Assembly: GCF_019599185.1 (NCBI RefSeq)
Contig: NZ_JAIEUL010000006.1
Location: 62,001 to 126,000, forward strand
DNA from: Cryobacterium inferilacus
Lineage (GTDB): Bacteria; Actinomycetota; Actinomycetes; Actinomycetales; Microbacteriaceae
Direction: 5' to 3'
Length of the DNA: 64,000 nt
A program made the translations under genes and the position numbers. Shown here piece after piece: positions 479 to 60,657 of the stretch (position 1 is the first letter of the stretch; each line of letters opens with the position of its first letter). The notes below the pieces were generated by a model. That model was not told the origin of the DNA. It saw only the letters and a list, made by a program, of their open reading frames with translations, and searched no databases.

Positions 479-490
479 CGGCTCGCACGC

Positions 491-556
491 AACTGTTCCC
501 CGTGCGGACAACTGGTCCCGGTACACCGGGTGCAATTGTCCGCACGGGGAACAGTT
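491..556. repeat. Palindromic element A0 (family A), also likely bidirectional terminator
   Basis: Two perfectly complementary 21-bp arms, 491-511 and 536-556, enclose a 24-nt loop that itself holds a small CCCGGT/ACCGGG-like stem. The element fills the gap between two convergent genes, so as RNA it would make a strong hairpin from either side, although no T-run follows. The inner part of the arm (GCGGACAACTGG) resembles the GGACAnTT arms of the elements at 6.9-8.15 kb, so I group it with them as family A. Confidence 0.8.
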
Positions 557-578
557 AGTTGCGGATATGGGTGCTGGG

Positions 579-6910: not shown

Positions 6911-6969
6911 GCGAACGGACACTTTGGGCCCACTATTTGGGCCGCGACGGGCCAATGCTGTCCGTTCGC
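6911..6969. repeat. Palindromic element A1 (family A)
   Basis: Imperfect inverted repeat: left arm GCGAACGGACACTTTGGGCC, right arm complementary to it with about four mismatches (GGCCAATGCTGTCCGTTCGC). It lies between the divergently transcribed add and DUF559 genes, just upstream of A2. It shares the GGACAnTT and GGCC blocks with A2, A3 and A4. Confidence 0.75.
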
Positions 6970-6984
6970 CGAATTGGGATTTTG

Positions 6985-7041
6985 CGAGTGGGCAGTTGGG
7001 GCCCGTCAGCGGGCTGCAGACGGGCCGGAACTGTCCACTCG
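6985..7041. repeat. Palindromic element A2 (family A)
   Basis: 57-bp inverted repeat. The left arm begins CGAGTGGGCAGTTGGGGCCC and the right arm ends GGAACTGTCCACTCG; the arms pair over about 22 bp with two or three mismatches. It ends 68 bp before the start of the DUF559 gene. Confidence 0.8.
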
Positions 7042-7109
7042 ACGGGGCTTGATTGAGCGGGCGGTGGATAACTCTGACGCGCCGGCGAGGGAGCTGGCAC
7101 GGTGCTGGA

Positions 7110-8072
7110 ATGTCTCGTCGATCAGAATTGCCCCGCGGTCTTCCCCCGGAGGGTTTCACCGTGGCCGACGCCCGGGCAGCCGGTGTCAGCCGTAAGCGCA
7201 CGCGCGCACGCGACCTGGAGATGCCGTTCCGCGGGGTGCGTGCGGTGGCGGGCAGCGGGGATGCGGTAGCCGGGCGTGCTCGGGCCTACGCCGCTCGGAT
7301 GCCCACCGACCATTTCTTCAGCCACACCACGGCGGCGCTCTTGCTCGGTCTTCCGCTGCCGCGGCGGCTCGAGAACGATCCAAGGCTGCACGTGAGCGTC
7401 CTGTCTCCCGGGCGAGCGCTCCGGATGCGCGGTGTTGCGGGTCATTCACTGCAGCATCGTCCCGGACTGTGGATCGTCAACGGGCTCCCGGTGACAGACC
7501 CTGTAACCACCTGGTGTGACCTCGCCGTGAGCCTCGGGCTTGACGACCTCATTGCCGTTGGCGATCACCTTCTCGGCAAGCTCGAGCCGGCGGCCTCGAT
7601 GGACGAGCTTGGTGCGGCCGTTGCGGCGAGGGCCGGCCGACGCGGGGTCCACCGGCTGCGCGAGGCGCTGGAATGGGTGCGCCCCCGGGTCGAGTCCCCG
7701 CGCGAGACCCGCCTGCGACTGCTGGTGGTGCGCGCAGGATTCCCCGAGCCCGACACCAACCTCGATCTGCATCTACCCGCCGGCCGCAAGCGGGCACGCG
7801 GAGACCTGGTCTACATGCGGTACAAGATTTTGGTGGAGTACGACGGCGAGCAGCATCGCACCGACGACGCGCAGTACGCGCGTGACCTGGAACGCCTCGA
7901 CGATCTGGCTGCGGCAGGCTGGCGGGTCATTCGGGCGGCGAAGTTCAGCCGACCCGCCAAGATCCTGTCACGGCTCGACGAGGCTCTTCGCGCCCGGGGC
8001 TGGCGCCCCGAACTCCCCACGCCGAGAGGACAGTTGCGGCCCGTCGCGAGCCTCCACACGGGCCACAAGTGA
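7110..8072 (+). CDS. DUF559 (Vsr-like nuclease fold) protein with AbiEi-like N-terminus
   Basis: 320 residues from the ATG at 7110. N-terminal third: a winged-helix-like start as in AbiEi-type proteins (GFTVADARAAGVSRKRTRARDL, then a basic GVRAV strand). C-terminal part: a DUF559 domain, YKILVEYDGEQHRTDD..YARDLERLDDLAAAGWRVIR, with the Asp/Glu/Gln-His residues expected of a PD-(D/E)xK or Vsr-like nuclease core. The function of such proteins is not established. The last 15 or so residues (RGQLRPVASLHTGHK) and the stop are encoded by palindrome A3, so the repeat has replaced or extended the 3' end. A1 and A2 precede the gene and A4 follows it. A second DUF559 gene lies at 26.4 kb. Confidence 0.75.
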   Translation: MSRRSELPRGLPPEGFTVADARAAGVSRKRTRARDLEMPFRGVRAVAGSGDAVAGRARAYAARMPTDHFFSHTTAALLLGLPLPRRLENDPRLHVSVLSPGRALRMRGVAGHSLQHRPGLWIVNGLPVTDPVTTWCDLAVSLGLDDLIAVGDHLLGKLEPAASMDELGAAVAARAGRRGVHRLREALEWVRPRVESPRETRLRLLVVRAGFPEPDTNLDLHLPAGRKRARGDLVYMRYKILVEYDGEQHRTDDAQYARDLERLDDLAAAGWRVIRAAKFSRPAKILSRLDEALRARGWRPELPTPRGQLRPVASLHTGHK

Positions 8073-8080
8073 CCACTCGC
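8023..8080. repeat. Palindromic element A3, overlapping the end of the DUF559 gene
   Basis: Begins CGAGAGGACAGTTGCGGCCC and ends GGGCCACAAGTGACCACTCGC; arms pair at about 16 of 21 positions. The DUF559 reading frame runs through it and stops at TGA 8070-8072 inside the right arm. Nearly identical to A4, 15 bp downstream. Confidence 0.85.
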
Positions 8081-8094
8081 GAGAGGACACCCAG

Positions 8095-8153
8095 GCGAGA
8101 GGACAGTTGCGGCCCGTCGCGAGCCTCTACACGGGCCACAAGTGACCACTCGC
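8095..8153. repeat. Palindromic element A4, near-exact tandem copy of A3
   Basis: Over about 57 bp I see a single difference from A3 (CCTCCACACG versus CCTCTACACG). The 14 bp between them (GAGAGGACACCCAG) looks like a truncated start of a further copy. Such identity points to a recent duplication. It lies between the DUF559 gene and the end of deoA. Confidence 0.85.
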
Positions 8154-23549: not shown

Positions 23550-23598
23550 TTTTTGTATTGCCGCTGCTGCGGCCTTGAACCTGACGAAAGACTCCCCT

Positions 23599-24603
23599 AT
23601 GACCAAGACCCGCCTCTACTCCGGCATGCAGCCGTCGGCCGATTCGCTGCAGATCGGCAATTACATCGGTGCGCTGCTGAACTGGAAGAAGCTGCAGCAG
23701 ACCCACGACGCGTTCTTTTCGATCGTGGACCTGCACGCCATCACCGTGGCGCAGGACCCGGCCAAGCTGCGCGAGAACACCCGCGCCACCGCCGCTCAGT
23801 ACATCGCCGCGGGCATCGACCCGGCCGAATCGACGCTGTACGTGCAGTCGCACGTGGCCGCGCACGCGCAGCTGGCCTGGGCGCTGAACACCCTCACCGG
23901 ATTCGGTGAGGCCAGCCGGATGACCCAGTTCAAGGACAAGTCGGTGAAGCAAGGAGCTGACGCCACCACGGTGGGGCTGTTCGCCTACCCGGTGCTGATG
24001 GCCGCGGACATCCTGCTGTTCCAGAGCGAGATCGTGCCGGTGGGCGAGGACCAGCGCCAGCACGTCGAACTCACCCGCGACCTGGCCGCCCGCTTCAACT
24101 CCCGGTTCGGCGAGACCTTCACGGTGCCGACCGCTTCGATCATCCGTGACACCGCGAAGATCTACGACCTGCAGAACCCGACCGCGAAGATGTCGAAGTC
24201 GGCCGAGTCGCACGCCGGCGTGATCTGGATGCTCGACGAGCCATCCGTGACGGCGAAGAAGATCATGCGGGCCGTGACGGATGCCGAGGGCGGCGTGGTC
24301 TTCGACCGGGAGAACAAGCCCGGCGTGGCCAACCTGCTCACGATCTACTCCGTGATGGCCGAGCGTTCGGTGCAGTCTCTGGAGGACGAATACGCGGGTC
24401 GCGGTTACGGCGATTTCAAGAAGGGCCTGGCCGAGGTGGTCACCGAGACCTTCGGCGGCATTCGCGCACGCGTGCTCGAGCTGCTCGACGACCCGGCCGA
24501 GCTGGACCGGATTCTGGCCGGCAACGCCGACCGGGCCGCGGCCGTGGCCGACGTCACGCTGGCGAACGCGTTCGACCGGATGGGGTTCCTGGCGCGCCGC
24601 TGA
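23599..24603 (+). CDS. trpS: Tryptophan--tRNA ligase
   Basis: 334 residues from the ATG at 23599 ([24 protein letters not shown]). The HIGH-equivalent is QIGN (18-21); KMSKS is at 197-201. Class Ic synthetase charging tRNA-Trp. An in-frame TTG at 23575 would add eight residues, but the family normally begins at this ATG. The only tryptophanyl synthetase seen in the window. Confidence 0.96.
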
Positions 24604-25261: not shown

Positions 25262-26044
25262 GTGGCCGGTGAGGCTGCTGTGACGGGTGGGGGCGGTGTG
25301 GCTACGCCCGTTCTGGTGCTGTTCGACCTCGACGACACCCTCTTCGCGCACCGGGAGGCCGTGGCGGCCGGCATCCTCGGCCACGTCGCCGCGCAGGGCG
25401 GCCGCGGTGCGGCCGCCGACCCGCACGAGGTCGTCACGCTGTGGAATGCCCTCGAGGAGCAGCACTATCACGCCTACCTCGCCGGCGATCTGGACTTCGC
25501 CGGGCAGCGCGGTGCCAGGGCGCGCGACTTCGCGGCCGCCCACGGGGTGCAGCTCTCGGCCGCGGAGGCCGCGGCCTGGTTCGAGGACTACTTCCTGCAC
25601 TACCGGGCGAATTGGCGCCTGCACGACGACGCCCTGCCCTGCCTGGACGAGTTGGCTCTGCGCATCCCTGGCGTGCGATTCGGGCTGATCACCAACGGCG
25701 AGCTGGCCTACCAGAGTGTGAAACTGGTCGACACCGGCCTGGACGCCCGGGTGGAGCAGGTGGTCACCTCGGCGGAGTTCGGCCTGGCCAAGCCCCGGCC
25801 GGAGATCTTCCTGCACGCCGCCGGCCTGTTCGGGGCCGACCCGGCGTCGGTCGTGTACGTGGGTGATCGGCTGCGCACCGACGCGATCGGGGCCGCCGCC
25901 GCGGGGCTCACCGGCGTGTGGCTGGACCGCGTGGGCACGGCCGGCCCTCCCCCGACCGAGGCCGACCTGGCCGAGGCCCGCCGGCTCGGCGTCATCCGTC
26001 TCAGCACCCTCGACGCACTGCCGAACGCCCTGACCCCCTACTAA
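25262..26044 (+). CDS. HAD-family hydrolase (probable phosphatase)
   Basis: Up to 260 residues. Catalytic LFDLDDTLF gives the nucleophile Asp and general-acid Asp. A helical cap of about 100 residues follows, then GLITNGEL (motif II), AKPRPEIF (motif III Lys) and VVYVGDRLRTDAIGA (motif IV Asp). Subtype YjjG/HAD-IA, so a small phosphorylated metabolite is expected. The start is uncertain: GTG codons at 25262 and 25280 both precede the conserved part at about residue 17. Converges on the DUF559 gene across elements B1 and B2. Confidence 0.82.
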   Translation: MAGEAAVTGGGGVATPVLVLFDLDDTLFAHREAVAAGILGHVAAQGGRGAAADPHEVVTLWNALEEQHYHAYLAGDLDFAGQRGARARDFAAAHGVQLSAAEAAAWFEDYFLHYRANWRLHDDALPCLDELALRIPGVRFGLITNGELAYQSVKLVDTGLDARVEQVVTSAEFGLAKPRPEIFLHAAGLFGADPASVVYVGDRLRTDAIGAAAAGLTGVWLDRVGTAGPPPTEADLAEARRLGVIRLSTLDALPNALTPY

Positions 26045-26096: not shown

Positions 26097-26188
26097 GCAT
26101 AACTCCTGCAATTCTCAGCTTGCGTGCGCGCCGGTCCCGGAATCACGCGGCTGCCAGTATCAAGACTCGAGAATTGCAGGAGTTATGC
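26097..26188. repeat. Palindromic element B1 (family B)
   Basis: 92 bp. The left end is GCATAACTCCTGCAATTCTC and the right end is its exact complement over 20 bp, so the terminal arms are perfect. The centre carries GGTCCCGGAATCACGCGG, which includes the GAATCACG core shared with B4 and B6. Confidence 0.9.
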
Positions 26189-26277
26189 TCGCCCAAGCTC
26201 CGCAAGTCGACGTGGGGACCGTCTGCGGGCTGGTGCTGACGTCGCCGAGTTGGATGCGTCCTCCGCCGCCGAGCGCT

Positions 26278-26370
26278 GCACAACTCCTGCAATTCCCGAC
26301 TACCTCGGCGCAGCTGCCCCGTAAAGACGCGGCGGGTTGCATCCGAACTCGAGAACTGCAGGAGTTATGC
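26278..26370. repeat. Palindromic element B2 (family B)
   Basis: 93 bp. Left arm GCACAACTCCTGCAATTC, right arm GAACTGCAGGAGTTATGC; two mismatches between arms. The GAATCACG core is not recognisable. It ends 46 bp from the stop codon of the DUF559 gene. Confidence 0.85.
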
Positions 26371-26416
26371 ACGCTGCAGGTCTTGGACGGCCGGGCAGGA
26401 GAGGGCTGGGGGGCGG

Positions 26417-27307
26417 TCAGGGCCGCGCGGCGCCGCCGCGGCTGATCTCGACCAGATGACGAATGGCCGCCACCACGGTCTCCGGCTCGAACATGATGTG
26501 CTGGTACAGCACCCGCAGGGACACATAGCCCCGCTCGGCCAGGAGCAGGTCACGACTACGGTCGCGGACGTGCTGCTCCCACTCCTTGTGAAATCCTTGG
26601 CTATCGGCCTCGACCACAACGCAGCCCTCAACGAGCGTGTCGACCCGGCCGACCCCGTCGATGACGACCTGAATCTCGCACTGCAGTCCGGCGTTGAGGA
26701 TCACCTCGCGCAAGACGGTCTCCTGGCCCGCCTCTGATCGGGCGTTGATCCGCGGACGCAGACTCTGGTGCGCAGCGGGCACCCTGGCGAATATTTCAGC
26801 CAGGTCGTGATGACGGATGCGCCGCTCGTGCAGCGCGAGATCCAGCGCTGCGAGGGCGAAGCGTGGCTCCTGGCAGCGGATGATCTGCACGAGGGCGTCC
26901 CGCACGCCCACGCAGAACTCGGTACCCTCGCTCTCGTCGATCAGCGGCCACCAGTGCAGTTGCACACCGTCGCGCGGCAGCTCGGCGAGAGGCCGAAACC
27001 GGGTGTGCGGGCTGCGAAGCCGGGAGGCCTCCCGATCCAAGTGCAGGTGGGTGTGGCTGTCGTCGAAGACGAACAGTCCAAGCTCTGCTGCGGCCGAGAC
27101 GCAGGCCAGCCGACCGCCCACTCGCACGGCCTCGAGGGTGTGTTGGTCGAGGGTGGGTCGGGCGTAGTGATCGCGGCGCACGCGGATGATGTCGCCGTTG
27201 CGCACAGCTGCCGTGATCGCCCCACCGCTCATACCGCTCCGACGCAGGTCCATGCGGTGGATGATGCGGCGGGAGCCGAACAGGTAGGCGAGGTAGACGG
27301 GAGGCAT
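26417..27307 (-). CDS. DUF559 (Vsr-like nuclease fold) protein with AbiEi-like N-terminus
   Basis: About 296 residues from the ATG at 27307; a GTG at 27364 is possible and neither has a clear ribosome site. The start (RIIHRMDLRRSGMSGGAITAAVRNGDIIRVRRDHYA) is the helix-turn-helix/wing of AbiEi-like proteins. The last 110 residues form a DUF559 domain: INARSEAGQETVLREVILNAGLQCEIQ, VGRVDTLVEGCVVVEADSQGFH and RDRSRDLLLAERGYVSLRVLYQHI, with Glu, Asp and Glu-x-Asp spaced as in PD-(D/E)xK/Vsr-like nucleases. Same architecture as the gene at 7.1 kb but clearly diverged. Flanked by family B palindromes on both sides. Function unestablished. Confidence 0.75.
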   Translation of the reverse strand: MPPVYLAYLFGSRRIIHRMDLRRSGMSGGAITAAVRNGDIIRVRRDHYARPTLDQHTLEAVRVGGRLACVSAAAELGLFVFDDSHTHLHLDREASRLRSPHTRFRPLAELPRDGVQLHWWPLIDESEGTEFCVGVRDALVQIIRCQEPRFALAALDLALHERRIRHHDLAEIFARVPAAHQSLRPRINARSEAGQETVLREVILNAGLQCEIQVVIDGVGRVDTLVEGCVVVEADSQGFHKEWEQHVRDRSRDLLLAERGYVSLRVLYQHIMFEPETVVAAIRHLVEISRGGAARP

Positions 27308-27469
27308 ACCGGTACGGTGCGGCAGGTGCGCATCCGCTGACCAAGAGGCGGCCAGTCTGTGCACAACCGGGCCCGACCATCACCTGTGGAGAACACCCAC
27401 CACCGTCGATCTGGCGAGCGGCCCCCGCAGTCAGTGACAATCCGTCCGCCGGTCACCCGCTCGACGTCT

Positions 27470-27562
27470 GCATAACTCCTGCAATACGACCGCCGGCCGG
27501 ATGCCCAGCCCCGTGATTGCGGGGCCGGCAGCCGGCCGGCAGAGAAATAGCAGGAGTTATGC
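27470..27562. repeat. Palindromic element B3 (family B)
   Basis: 93 bp. Ends GCATAACTCCTGCAAT and ATAGCAGGAGTTATGC, outer 13 bp perfectly complementary. The centre has CCCCGTGATTGCGGGG, the core in the opposite orientation to B1. It lies between the start of the DUF559 gene and the end of glpK, about 160 bp upstream of the former. Confidence 0.88.
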
Positions 27563-27612: not shown

Positions 27613-29130
27613 CTACAGGACGTCTTCGTCGACCCAGTCGAGGGTCTTGGTGACGGCCTTCTTCCAGTTGCGCAGCAGGCGGGCGCGCTCGGCGTCCTCC
27701 ATGTCGGGCTCCCAGCGGGCGTCTTCCTGCCAGTTGGTGCGCAGCTCGCCCAGTCCGCTCCAGAAGCCCACGGCCAGGCCGGCCGCGTACGCGGCGCCGA
27801 GCGCGGTGGTCTCGGCCACGACCGGGCGCACCACGGGCACGCCGAGGATGTCGGCCTGGAACTGGAGCAGCAGGTTGTTGCCGGTGGCGCCGCCGTCGAC
27901 CTTGAGCTCGGTCAGCGGCACGCCGGAGTCCGCGTTGACGGCGTCGATGACCTCGCGGGTCTGGAACGCGATGGCCTCCAGCGCCGCCCGGGCGATGTGG
28001 CCCTTGTTGACGAACCGGGTCAGGCCCACCAGCGCACCGCGGGCATCCGCACGCCAGTACGGCGCGAACAGGCCGCTGAACGCCGGCACGAAGTAGGCGC
28101 CGCCGTTGTCGTCGACGGTGCGGGCCAGGGTCTCGATCTCGCTCGCCGACGAGATCAGGCCCAGGCTGTCGCGCAGCCACTGCACCAGCGACCCGGTGAC
28201 GGCGATCGAACCCTCGAGGGCGTAGTGCGGTTCGGCGTCGCCGAGCTTGTAACCCAGCGTGGTGAGCAGGCCGTTCTTGGAGTGGATGATCTCGGTGCCG
28301 GTGTTGAAGATCAGGAAGTTACCGGTGCCGTAGGTGTTCTTCGCCTCGCCCTGGTCGAACGCGGCCTGACCGAAGGTGGCGGCCTGCTGGTCACCGAGGA
28401 TGCCCGCAATGGGCACCTCGCGCAGCAGGCTGTGCTCGTTGACGGTGCCGTAGACCTCGCTGGAGGAGCGGATCTCGGGCATCATCGAGCGCGGCACGCC
28501 GAATTCGGCAAGGATCTCGTCGTCCCATTCGAGGGTCTCGAGGTTCATGAACAGGGTGCGGCTGGCGTTGGTGACGTCGGTGGCGTGCACGCCGCCCTCC
28601 AGGCCGCCGGTGAGGTTCCAGAGCACCCAGGTGTCTGTCGTGCCGAACATCAGGTCGCCCCGCTCGGCCTTCTCGCGGGCGCCCTCCACGTTCTCCAGGA
28701 TCCAGACGATCTTGGTGCCGGAGAAGTAGGTGGCCAGGGGCAGGCCGACGGTGGCCTTGAACCGGTCACCGCCACCATCCGCGGCGAGACGGTCGACGAT
28801 GGGCTGGGTGCGGGTGTCCTGCCAGACGATGGCGTTGTAGACCGGCAGGCCGGTGGTGCGGTCCCAGACCACGGCGGTCTCGCGCTGGTTGGTGATGCCG
28901 ACGGCCTCGATGTCGTGCCGGGTCAGGTTGGCCTTGGACAGCGCCTGGCCGATGACCTGGCGGGTGTTGCCCCAGATCTCCATCGGGTCGTGCTCGACCC
29001 AGCCGGCGCGGGGGAAGATCTGCTCGTGCTCGAGCTGACCGGTGGAGATGATCGAGCCGGCGTGGTCGAAGATGATGGCGCGGGTGCTCGTGGTGCCCTG
29101 GTCGATGGCGAAGATGTACTTGTCACTCAT
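27613..29130 (-). CDS. glpK: Glycerol kinase
   Basis: 505 residues from the ATG at 29130, with AGGAG nine bases upstream. FGGY-kinase features: [15 protein letters not shown] (8-22), [26 protein letters not shown], the [17 protein letters not shown] segment and the C-terminal ATP-binding half. It phosphorylates glycerol to sn-glycerol-3-phosphate, substrate of GlpD encoded upstream. Third gene of glpD-glpF-glpK, all on the minus strand. Confidence 0.96.
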
Positions 29131-32947: not shown

Positions 32948-33023
32948 CCCGCCGCGGACGACGTCGGGTTACGTCGGGAATACCCCGGAGCGGCACGCGT
33001 TGAGATATAACTGACAGTAGATA

Positions 33024-33151
33024 CGTGCTCCGGGGTCGGTGAGAATCCGAACCGGCGGTTACAGTCCGCGAGCTGAGACCCGATGTTTGGGTTTCGGTTG
33101 AGCTGGTGAAACTCCAGCACCGACGGTTAAAGTCCGGATGGGAGGCGCACG
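33024..33151 (+). promoter_or_regulatory. FMN riboswitch (RFN element)
   Basis: Conserved RFN blocks in order: GGGGTCGGTGAGAATCCG, ACCGGCGGTTACAGTCCGCG, AGCTGGTGAAACTCCAGCAC, CGACGGTTAAAGTCCGGATG. P1 closes by CGTGC (33024-33028) with GCACG (33147-33151). It senses FMN and controls the rib operon that starts 83 bp further on. Confidence 0.95.
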
Positions 33152-33182
33152 AATCGATGGTTCCTCGTGGACCGTCGACGGT

Positions 33183-36794: not shown

Positions 36795-36886
36795 GCATAA
36801 CTCCTGCAATTTCTCGGATGACGCGCATCCGGGCCCGGAATCACGCGGGAGTGCGGCCCCGCGACAAGAATCTGCAGGAGTTATGC
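36795..36886. repeat. Palindromic element B4 (family B)
   Basis: 92 bp. Left GCATAACTCCTGCAATTTCTC, right GAATCTGCAGGAGTTATGC; outer 15 bp pair exactly. The centre GGGCCCGGAATCACGCGG is almost the same as in B1. Between convergent ribH and the response regulator gene. Confidence 0.9.
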
Positions 36887-40680: not shown

Positions 40681-40776
40681 TCGCGGCGCGCAGCTGTTGC
40701 TCGCGGCGCAGGTTATTGCTCGCGGCGCAGGTTGTTGCTCGCGGCGCAGGTTGTTGCTCGCGGCGCAGGTTATTGC
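40681..40776. repeat. Tandem array 1: five units of about 19 bp
   Basis: Units TCGCGGCGCAGGTTRTTGC at 40701, 40720, 40739 and 40758 (19 bp each, differing only at one A/G position), preceded by a diverged 20-bp unit at 40681. No spacer between units, so this is a minisatellite, not CRISPR. Confidence 0.92.
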
Positions 40777-40890
40777 GAGACATAAGATGCGCCACGAGAC
40801 GTAAGGTGCGCCACGAGACGTAAGGTGCGCCGCGAGACGAAAGGTGCGCCACGAGACACAAGGTCCGCCACGACACATAAAGTGCGCCGC
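40777..40890. repeat. Tandem array 2: six 19-bp units, inverted relative to array 1
   Basis: Units of the form GAGACGTAAGGTGCGCCAC at 40777, 40796, 40815, 40834, 40853 and 40872, with 1-5 changes each, and a decayed seventh. The complement of the unit (GTGGCGCACCTTACGTCTC) resembles the array 1 unit, so the arrays face one another head to head with no gap and could form a long imperfect hairpin. Confidence 0.9.
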
Positions 40891-40928
40891 GAGAAGAATG
40901 GAGCGCAGTCCTGGCGCGTCAACGCCGG

Positions 40929-41243: not shown

Positions 41244-41325
41244 GCACAACTCCTGCAGATCCCTCGAAACCTCCTCCAGATTTGCCGCCTGACCGGGATC
41301 GGCCGAAATACAGCAGGAGTTATGC
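41244..41325. repeat. Palindromic element B5 (family B, short)
   Basis: 82 bp. Ends GCACAACTCCTGCAGAT and ATACAGCAGGAGTTATGC; outer arms pair with one or two mismatches. The centre (CTCCAGATTTGCCGCCTGAC) lacks the GAATCACG core. It lies 61 bp before the ABC exporter gene. Confidence 0.85.
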
Positions 41326-54736: not shown

Positions 54737-54829
54737 GCATAACTCCTGCTGTTTCTGGTTCGGCCGAGCCGGCACCCGCAGAATCACGGGCATCCGTCGC
54801 CCGCGGCACGAGAATTGCAGGAGTTGTGC
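54737..54829. repeat. Palindromic element B6 (family B)
   Basis: 93 bp. Left GCATAACTCCTGCTGTTTCT, right GAGAATTGCAGGAGTTGTGC. The centre GCACCCGCAGAATCACGGGC includes the GAATCACG core. Lies 29 bp after the RamB/ScfR-like gene and before the GAF-ANTAR pair. Confidence 0.87.
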
Positions 54830-57498: not shown

Positions 57499-57591
57499 GC
57501 ACAACTCCTGCAATTCTCGGATGCCCGGGGTCGCCGGCCCCGTGATTCGAGGCATCCGTCGTCTCGCCGTGAAATTCTGCAGGAGTTATGC
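57499..57591. repeat. Palindromic element B7 (family B)
   Basis: 93 bp. Left GCACAACTCCTGCAATTCTC, right GAAATTCTGCAGGAGTTATGC. The centre CCGGCCCCGTGATTCGAGG carries the core in reverse orientation to B1. The only copy here that lies in a divergent promoter region. Confidence 0.88.
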
Positions 57592-58903: not shown

Positions 58904-59380
58904 ATGATTCGGATCGACCTCGACGACCCCACCCGGGAGGACGTGCGGCTGCTGCTCGACGAGCACCTGGCCGATATGTTCGCCACGTCGCCGGCCGAGA
59001 GCGTGCATTCCCTCGACCACTCGGCCCTGTCGGCACCGGAGATCTCGTTCTGGACGGCCCGCGAGAACGGCACCCTGCTGGGCTGTGGGGCGCTCAAACG
59101 GCTCACCGCGGTGCACGGTGAGATCAAGTCCATGCGCACCACGCCCGCCGCGCGCGGCCGGGGCGTGGCCGGGCTACTTCTCAGCTCGATCGTGGCCGAG
59201 GCCCGCCGGCGGGGCACCGAGCGGCTCTCCCTGGAGACCGGCACGGAGGAGTTCTTCGCCCCGGCACGCCGGCTCTACACCCGGCACGGTTTCACCGAGT
59301 GCCCACCCTTCGCCGGCTACGCCCTCGACCCGCACAGCGTCTTCCTGACCCTCGCCCTCACCCCGGGCGCGGCTGCATAA
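58904..59380 (+). CDS. GNAT-family N-acetyltransferase
   Basis: 158 residues. Core: EISFWTARENGTLLGCGALKRL, then KSMRTTPAARGRGVAGLLLSSIVAEARRRGTERLSLETG with the acetyl-CoA loop RGRGVA, and FFAPARRLYTRHGFTECPPFAGY. Resembles small-molecule or amino-acid acetyltransferases (ElaA/YiaC-like); substrate not known. Its last Ala codon and TAA stop are the first bases of palindrome B8. Confidence 0.88.
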   Translation: MIRIDLDDPTREDVRLLLDEHLADMFATSPAESVHSLDHSALSAPEISFWTARENGTLLGCGALKRLTAVHGEIKSMRTTPAARGRGVAGLLLSSIVAEARRRGTERLSLETGTEEFFAPARRLYTRHGFTECPPFAGYALDPHSVFLTLALTPGAAA

Positions 59381-59466
59381 CTCCTGCAATTCCTGATCGG
59401 CGGCGGATGCTCCCGCGTCTTTCCGGCATCCGTGCCTACGGCCGGCAGAAAATGCCGGAGTTATGC
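59375..59466. repeat. Palindromic element B8, providing stops to both flanking genes
   Basis: 92 bp. Left GCATAACTCCTGCAATTCCT, right GAAAATGCCGGAGTTATGC. GCA TAA at the left end terminates the GNAT gene; on the other strand GCA TAA at the right end terminates the alpha/beta hydrolase gene. There is no spacer on either side. The centre lacks the GAATCACG core. Confidence 0.9.
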
Positions 59467-60330: not shown

Positions 60331-60657
60331 GGCTCCGATCCTCCCAGTGACCGTTGTCACCGTTCGGCCTCGACACGCTCGAGGGCCCGTTCTGGGGTGC
60401 CCGGCGAGCCGGCCGATGGATGCCCGGCTGAACAACCCGCTGGATCACCCGGTTCTGCCGATGCGTGGGTCAGGCGCCGGCACGCCCGCCCCGACCCCGC
60501 CCTCCACCAGCGAACCGATGGGGTGGGGTGCATAACTCCTGCAATTTCTCCGAAACGGCCCGAATCTGGCTGGTTTCGGCCAGTTTTTGGGATTCTGCAG
60601 GAGTTATGCGCCCGGCGCTGCGGTGAGGGGGCGGCGGTGAGGGGGCTGGCGGCGGGG
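60331..60657. other. 327-bp gap with palindrome B9
   Basis: Between the start of the hydrolase and the end of the nucleoside hydrolase, both minus strand. Contains the small inverted repeat at 60347-60360 and B9 at 60530-60609. The stretch 60361-60529 shows no gene or hairpin I can support. Confidence 0.6.
60530..60609. repeat. Palindromic element B9 (family B, short)
   Basis: 80 bp. Left GCATAACTCCTGCAATTTC, right GATTCTGCAGGAGTTATGC; outer 15 bp pair exactly. The interior forms its own stem (GAAACGGCCCGAATCTGGCT with its partial complement GGTTTCGGCCAG), different from the GAATCACG cores. Confidence 0.88.

Follow-up and report, generated by a model that had tools for sequence, protein, structure and literature searches.

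DUF559 nuclease genes of Cryobacterium and its relatives are paired with palindromic elements of their own, in an arrangement resembling that of REP elements and RAYTs

We report that DUF559 genes in Cryobacterium and in other Actinomycetota are paired with palindromic elements of their own, in that the two sides of a gene often carry palindromes with matching arms and, in several cases, a motif specific to that gene recurs throughout the genome that holds it. The pairing itself is well supported. It recalls the REP elements of proteobacteria, which are spread by RAYT tyrosine nucleases whose genes are flanked by the cognate REPs, and the reading that we prefer, and hold to be probable, is that the partnership is REP/RAYT-like but involves an enzyme unrelated to RAYTs, in which the DUF559 protein would spread or maintain its own palindromes in trans. 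DUF559 is a little-studied Pfam family of unknown function, and we infer from sequence comparison that the protein may copy, mobilise or maintain these palindromes.

The window referred to throughout is a stretch of 64,000 nucleotides from Cryobacterium inferilacus, and its relevant features are collected in Table 1. It holds 23 matches to the half-site CAYAACTCCTGC with at most two mismatches, compared with a mean of 7.03 and a maximum of 13 in 100 shuffles, and across the whole genome (4,017,491 bases in 75 contigs) there are 98 exact half-sites and none for the reversed control, which rules out chance as the source of this family of palindromes, termed family B. Complete copies number nine in the window and 45 genome-wide, the nine included. 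The layout described in the earlier note is confirmed, with two B elements downstream and one upstream of the DUF559 reading frame and six more at 36-61 kb. Two of these six, so marked in Table 1, are missing from the orthologous sites of close relatives; the empty-site alignments show presence or absence, not element boundaries or target-site duplications. Separately, eight contig ends lie less than 450 bases from a B half-site. Each time, the palindrome is interrupted by sequence common to contigs, three sharing one end, three a second and two another; the first two shared ends can be read as the two ends of one putative IS3-like element, the open reading frame having been recognised by reading.

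Table 1. Positions of the DUF559 genes, their palindromes and neighbouring genes in the window
Feature	Position	Strand	Remarks
Family A palindrome, upstream of second DUF559 gene	6985..7042		another at ~6911-6969
Second DUF559 gene, paired with family A	7053..8072	+	
Two family A palindromes, downstream of second DUF559 gene	8023..8153 (8023-8080, 8096-8153)		
trpS, conserved neighbour of DUF559 gene	23575..24603	+	
HAD-like gene, convergent neighbour of DUF559 gene	25262..26044	+	
Family B palindrome, downstream of DUF559 gene	26098..26187		90 nt
Family B palindrome, downstream of DUF559 gene	26279..26369		91 nt
DUF559 / MTES_1575 (Vsr-type) nuclease gene	26417..27364	-	315 aa from GTG
Family B palindrome, upstream of DUF559 gene	27471..27561		91 nt
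glpK, neighbour on other side of DUF559 gene	27613..29112 (approximate ends)	-	
Family B palindrome	36796..36885		90 nt, missing from relatives' orthologous site
Family B palindrome	41245..41324		80 nt, missing from relatives' orthologous site
Family B palindrome	54738..54828		91 nt
Family B palindrome	57500..57590		91 nt
Family B palindrome	59376..59465		90 nt, mismatch in one arm
Family B palindrome	60531..60608		78 nt

A profile search of the genome for DUF559 found five genes, all of which have palindromes beside them, from four unrelated families, and four of which are flanked on both sides (partly judged by eye). The second DUF559 gene of the window is bracketed by family A, which is unrelated to family B, just as the earlier note had claimed. 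Elsewhere in the genome, the C21 gene has family C on both sides and the C1 gene has it on one side only, while the C55 gene is flanked on both sides by family D, the upstream copy being degenerate, recognised by eye and situated inside the longest possible reading frame. Family A is represented by 26 half-sites, which are clustered and lie partly at a 73-nt period. Families C (four exact and three one-mismatch matches) and D (one exact and three one-mismatch matches) are almost restricted to the surroundings of their genes. A matching gene therefore does not imply spread, and in this genome a matching palindrome is the rule and a high copy number is not. With the MTES_1575 profile there were seven matches in the genome, as against five for DUF559, among the matches listed, and one of the seven falls in a frame of 1885 aa.

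The same pairing is found in other genomes. At the 30 best-match loci from 199 genomes of the family, this one included, 28 had at least one palindrome with a score of at least 13 within 700 nt, a count that stands without a control, and by eye the arms of the 30 mostly differ between loci and agree on the two sides of one gene. A controlled comparison used 65 named actinobacterial loci, 63 of them with both flanks and 62 entering the comparison of flanks with proteins, and control genes from the same stretches. Palindromes forming a pair across the gene with 12 of 12 identical arm bases were present at 30 of the 63 loci and at none of the 334 control genes. Palindromes with a score of at least 14 were found in either flank at 54/63 loci and 60/334 control genes, and in both flanks at 29/63 and 2/334 respectively. 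An earlier strict matcher working with narrow offsets gave 29/63 loci, 1/334 controls and 14/378 mispaired flanks, the mispaired control including orthologous loci with related arms. The upstream and downstream flanks of the same gene match in 47 of the 62 loci, and the other 15 fall below the shared-segment threshold of 17, with no clear match between the two sides. Outside the Microbacteriaceae we took 40 genes, hand-picked and non-random, from varied genomes among the matches listed (frames of ~280-440 aa), 39 of which were usable. The best segment shared by the upstream and downstream flanks had a median of 25 for these genes, compared with 14 for 99 controls and 13 for 195 mispaired flanks, and reached at least 22 in 22/39 genes, 3/99 controls and 1/195 mispaired flanks. 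Palindromes with a score of at least 14 in either flank were likewise more frequent (21/39 vs 11/99), as were palindrome pairs at 11 of 12 arm bases (7/39 vs 0/99), both palindrome measures being weaker outside the family than within it. The earlier note had proposed asking whether every DUF559 subfamily has a matching palindrome beside it, and the five genes of this genome, the named loci (the 15 without a clear match excepted) and the genes outside the Microbacteriaceae all lend this support.

Arms and protein diverge together at a conserved chromosomal place. The trpS gene lies within ~4 kb of the DUF559 gene in 48 of the 65 named loci and in no fewer than ten named genera, so that the gene as a rule keeps its location by descent and does not hop often; a frequently hopping transposon gene was rejected on this evidence, and the movement of gene and ends to new sites that marks a composite transposon is not seen. 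When the upstream flank of one gene is compared with the downstream flank of another, the two match in 89% of 28 ordered pairs with 70-90% protein identity, in 20% of 198 ordered pairs at 55-70% and in 6% or less below 55%, with only 50% of the eight ordered pairs above 90% identity matching. Over the whole set, flank divergence is correlated with protein divergence (Mantel rho 0.15; 0/1000 permutations).

The suggestion in the earlier note that copy number tracks the presence of the gene was supported, with exceptions. Two motifs read beside the gene passed as predictions of dispersal: the arm of G164 (16 bases, one mismatch) has 77 matches in G164 and that of G091 (14 bases) has 18 in G091, each with at most one match in each of the 198 other genomes of the family. 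At least 12 B half-sites are present in 6/199 family genomes (G000, 98; G076, 40; G078, 39; G191, 38; G141, 13; G193, 12), and five of the six have a B-flanked orthologue. On the other side, no close orthologue of the B-type gene was found for G193 with its 12 half-sites, and in G120, G050, G175, G139 and G008, which have 5-9 half-sites, the gene is represented by remote relatives alone (best E 1.0e-38 to 4.5e-28). Moderate counts are likewise found in Cryobacterium genomes without the gene at its usual locus (G596, 25; G594, 23; G606, 16; G593, 16).

Within the genus, the trpS-glpK locus was genotyped in 26 of 31 genomes (those left out being G592, G600, G614, G616 and G618), and presence or absence of the gene was scored at this locus only. 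The motif used covers the B arms and those of a second type, GGCTAACTCAGG ('ox'); its reversed control gave 0-12 matches per genome (mean 3.0), so that low counts and single matches are inflated. Nine genomes in which the gene is B-flanked have motif counts of 87, 36, 55, 42, 24, 13, 40, 15 and 39, and four with ox flanks, one of which (G610) was assigned to this type from one exact arm, have counts of 47, 29, 27 and 50. Five genomes with other arms have 5, 7, 25, 2 and 1, seven without the gene at the locus have 23, 16, 8, 16, 25, 7 and 12, and one with a truncated gene (116-residue match) has 9. Counts in the B and ox groups together exceed those of the rest (p=1.1e-4) and of the gene-less group alone (p=0.0022), both values being uncorrected for shared ancestry. 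Intact pairs of half-sites were counted by hand in six genomes, in five from the full match lists of the genus motif and in G000 with a slightly different motif. They make up 168/192 half-sites in genomes bearing the gene (G597, 54/55; G615, 30/39; G000, 84/98) and 12/40 where it is absent from the locus (G591, 2/8; G593, 2/16; G606, 8/16). Eight of the 14 unpaired half-sites of G000 are interrupted by the putative IS. Where the gene is missing from its usual place, then, copy number is lower and fewer pairs are intact. The 7-25 motif matches in such genomes are possibly relics, or may have a gene elsewhere. In 469 kb sampled from ox-type genomes away from the gene there are six ox and four B half-sites, and B has therefore not been cleanly replaced.

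The window protein matches Pfam DUF559 with 23 bits, above the cut-off of 20.6, and MTES_1575 (PF18741) with 23.8 bits, below the cut-off of 38.2; an in-frame ATG at 27307 offers an alternative start, giving 296 aa. In an alignment with 29 relatives of 34-65% identity (n=30), 26 sequences match MTES_1575 at E<=0.01 and 17 columns are invariant. These include E215, D242, E252, D254, H259 and D268, identical in 30/30, and R284, and such conservation of catalytic-type residues is as would be expected of an active nuclease. Against PDB, the family profile matched an endonuclease-like protein (3hrl, E 1e-5), with non-significant matches to two unrelated chains (a ribosomal protein with E 1 and MukF with E 0.46) and to a mobile intron protein (3r3p, E 0.5). 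The last of these, which we take to be the EDxHD enzyme I-Bth0305I, is a weak match to the nuclease region and hints at a likeness to Vsr-like homing endonucleases. These enzymes are site-specific, and the DUF559 protein differs from them in having a dispersed palindrome family as its partner. The AbiEi-like start described in the earlier note is faint: AbiEi_4 scores 16.4 bits against a cut-off of 25, the PADLOC AbiEi profile gives E 1.2e-4, and AbiEi_4 is matched at E<=0.01 by 15/30 of the aligned sequences. To this extent the proteins resemble the AbiEi antitoxins of type IV toxin-antitoxin systems, and a difference lies in the genes adjoining the window DUF559 gene, which are the HAD-like gene and glpK. 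A search of the protein for a Y1/HUH transposase domain (Transposase_17) gave none, the matches being to MTES_1575, DUF559 and AbiEi_4 instead, and by its domain matches the DUF559 protein is not a RAYT.

The 45 B copies fall into discrete length classes of 78-80 nt (13 copies: three of 78, eight of 79, two of 80), 90-92 nt (31 copies: 16 of 90, 12 of 91, three of 92) and 100 nt (one copy), with nothing between the classes. Conservation covers a central stretch and some 17 bases at either end, and the remainder is variable. In the G091 family the 14-base motif has start-to-start spacings of 76, 78 and 86, corresponding to elements of 90, 92 and 100 nt, and an ox-type pattern gave 13 matches of 92-94 and 102-103 nt, some of them double-counted and from two overlapping sets of loci. 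The gap between 80 and 90 nt, and lengths that rise by roughly one helical turn at a time, suggest that protein may hold the two ends of B on duplex DNA. The interiors show no co-variation of the kind expected in a symmetric stem, since pairing was 0.399 compared with 0.387 for shuffled partners (504/2000 shuffles) and, for interiors of the 79-nt type, 0.413 compared with 0.372 (153/2000 shuffles), and a long symmetric hairpin was rejected as the recognised form. Quantised length together with the absence of interior co-variation suggests that the form recognised would be the duplex and not a folded single-stranded hairpin. A search of the window against Rfam found no family at threshold on B, the sole match being an FMN riboswitch, and a known RNA family was accordingly rejected as the identity of B. 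The 45 copies lie between convergent genes in 18 cases, tandem genes in 18 and divergent genes in six, with three unclassified (by a GC3 heuristic), and a crude background of 17 window ORF pairs (six convergent, seven tandem, four divergent) is not clearly different; a bias of B towards convergent gene ends (18/42 classified copies vs 6/17 pairs) was rejected.

In the reading that we prefer, the DUF559 protein would be a nuclease with sequence specificity, its target being the paired arms of the palindrome family that belongs to it. The palindromes would be non-autonomous and would depend on the protein, acting in trans, for their spread or their integrity, much as REPs are considered to depend on RAYT transposases. 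It may bind the arms as duplex DNA, a dimer bridging the two ends in keeping with the helical steps in length, and may then nick or cut at the arms, after which repair would copy or convert the element.

An alternative that we consider unlikely is that the protein regulates its own gene through the AbiEi-like winged helix, with the flanking palindromes as operators, the dispersed copies as a regulon and the nuclease acting elsewhere. The weak AbiEi-like start would agree with this, arms that evolve with the protein are what operators would show, and quantised lengths fit a dimer binding duplex DNA, but elements occur at either side of the gene, frequently downstream of it, and two B copies vary in presence between close relatives. 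There is also no excess of B at divergent promoters (6 of 45 copies), a weak objection as the background of 4/17 is not clearly different. Less likely again is a role of the nuclease in resolving cruciforms or in cutting foreign DNA, in which case its own chromosomal sites would act as marks or for titration and would not be elements that it spreads. Repair nickases are found among Vsr-type nucleases, and phage-defence systems contain relatives of AbiEi, with which the PADLOC profile match of the window protein is in line, but such a role does not predict that arm pairs are less often intact without the gene, nor that counts reach 13-87 where gene and matching arms occur together.

The gene and its flanking palindromes could instead form one transposon, with solo palindromes as its deletion derivatives. 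Identical arms on both sides would be expected of such a unit, and in five close relatives the gene and palindromes are missing as a block, leaving a HAD-glpK gap of 152-515 bp. Against this stand the persistence of trpS beside the gene across genera and the form of the flanks, each of which, where palindromes were found, is a complete palindrome and not half of a terminal repeat, and we regard this explanation as very improbable. Least probable of all is that the palindromes have an ordinary function in terminating transcription or stabilising mRNA, the nuclease merely tolerating or processing them, since the 18/42 classified B copies between convergent genes (against a background not clearly different) and a gapped RNA fold of B interiors stronger than that of shuffles (mean z -1.34 and -1.11) would suit it, but gene-specific arms, flanking on both sides and two motifs spread only in the genome of their own gene are left unexplained and no Rfam family reached threshold on B in the window.

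Returning to the REP/RAYT-like reading, the comparison with REPtrons can be drawn point by point. In the excerpted text of PMC2817692, RAYT genes are flanked by two inverted REPs and co-evolve with them, and their presence correlates with REP abundance. DUF559 genes share each of these features with REPtrons as the excerpts of PMC2817692 and PMC8266576 present them: palindromes of the gene's own family were found on both sides, enzyme and palindromes co-evolve, and the presence of the gene correlates with the abundance of its own palindromes, with the exceptions of G193, G594, G596, G606 and G593. Family A supplies clusters like the BIMEs of those systems. The DUF559-palindrome system behaves as a REPtron does yet falls outside that class. 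Its enzyme is a Vsr-type nuclease and not an HUH/tyrosine (Y1) transposase, and the B arms lack the GTAG-type head of REPs. The elements, at 78-100 nt and in discrete lengths, also differ from REPs, to which the abstract of PMC3733652 assigns 20-40 bp. Qualifying RAYT homologues were confined to gammaproteobacteria in the excerpt of PMC2817692, and that of PMC6006769 places related subclasses in further phyla, Cyanobacteria and Bacteroidetes among them; unlike the RAYTs of these two excerpts, the DUF559 pairing is found in Actinomycetota. The domain itself is described, in the part of PMC3710099 that treats MTES_1575, as a Vsr-type REase within a large HEPN/helicase/wHTH fusion protein. DUF559 proteins come from the same domain family, PF18741, and contrast with the fusion protein of that excerpt (PMC3710099) in standing alone at ~300 aa with a palindrome partner. 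We found no paper linking DUF559 to palindromes in the open PMC literature, as judged by titles and the beginnings of abstracts.

More broadly, the DUF559/Vsr-type nucleases of Actinomycetota may constitute a second class of enzymes that propagate palindromes, one of independent origin, in which each gene owns a fast-evolving dispersed family that would be copied or repaired by helically phased synapsis of the arms on duplex DNA, so that REP-like elements would have arisen at least twice, with nucleases unrelated to each other; in our judgement the case for this wider proposal is evenly balanced.

To our knowledge the RAYTs are the only class of enzyme with which REP elements have so far been linked. 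If the present reading is true, nuclease-palindrome pairs would have evolved convergently, and the pairing, which several families of Actinomycetota show, would suggest a function for DUF559. The genus Cryobacterium, made up of cold-adapted environmental bacteria, in which the same gene in the same place has six arm types, has been lost and is in one instance truncated, would offer a natural experiment in which recognition and mobility are directly testable.

At the ends of contigs in the genome of the window, family B palindromes (the dispersed elements found around one of its DUF559 genes) are interrupted by what we read as two insertion sequences (stretches L054-L060 and L065). In six contigs whose ends cut B palindromes we read the interrupting sequence as an IS3-like element, which enters the palindrome near its centre, approximately 40-54 nt from one end, and in two further contigs as the second insertion sequence.

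In the related genome G617, which is poor in motif matches, a DUF559 match of only 116 residues (L270, 14185-14529) has one B element remaining alongside it. Outside Microbacteriaceae, a DUF559 gene in L209 lies between 107-nt composite palindromes that are very similar to each other.

Another dispersed repeat, CTCGACAAGCTCGA, is present in 19 copies across 20 stretches (L231-L250) and in 1 copy in the window, and copies of it occupy the place in two related genomes, G593 and G591, that is orthologous to the site of the B copy at window 36796-36885. None of the scanned flanks of DUF559 genes, taken from 65 named loci and 40 others, contained this repeat. By eye, the arms of the palindrome of pair I5 have no resemblance to family A or B.

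Further features of the window and the dispersed repeat
Feature	Location	Strand	Detail
Palindrome (pair I5)	window 484-563		80 nt; arms 85% complementary
FMN riboswitch	window 33022-33153	plus	98.7 bits
Two neighbouring tandem arrays	window 40695-40907		shared 19-nt period, unlike units
CTCGACAAGCTCGA repeat	L232, L235, L240, L241, L246		dispersed copies

Family A palindromes, which bracket the second DUF559 gene, are grouped in the genome of the window into alternating clusters that repeat roughly every 73 nt (contig C6, 68097-68590; contig C66, 150357-150542), an arrangement like that of BIMEs. The interruption of B elements by the IS3-like and second putative insertion sequences resembles that of REPs in other bacteria, which are cut by some insertion sequences, ISPpu9 being an example.
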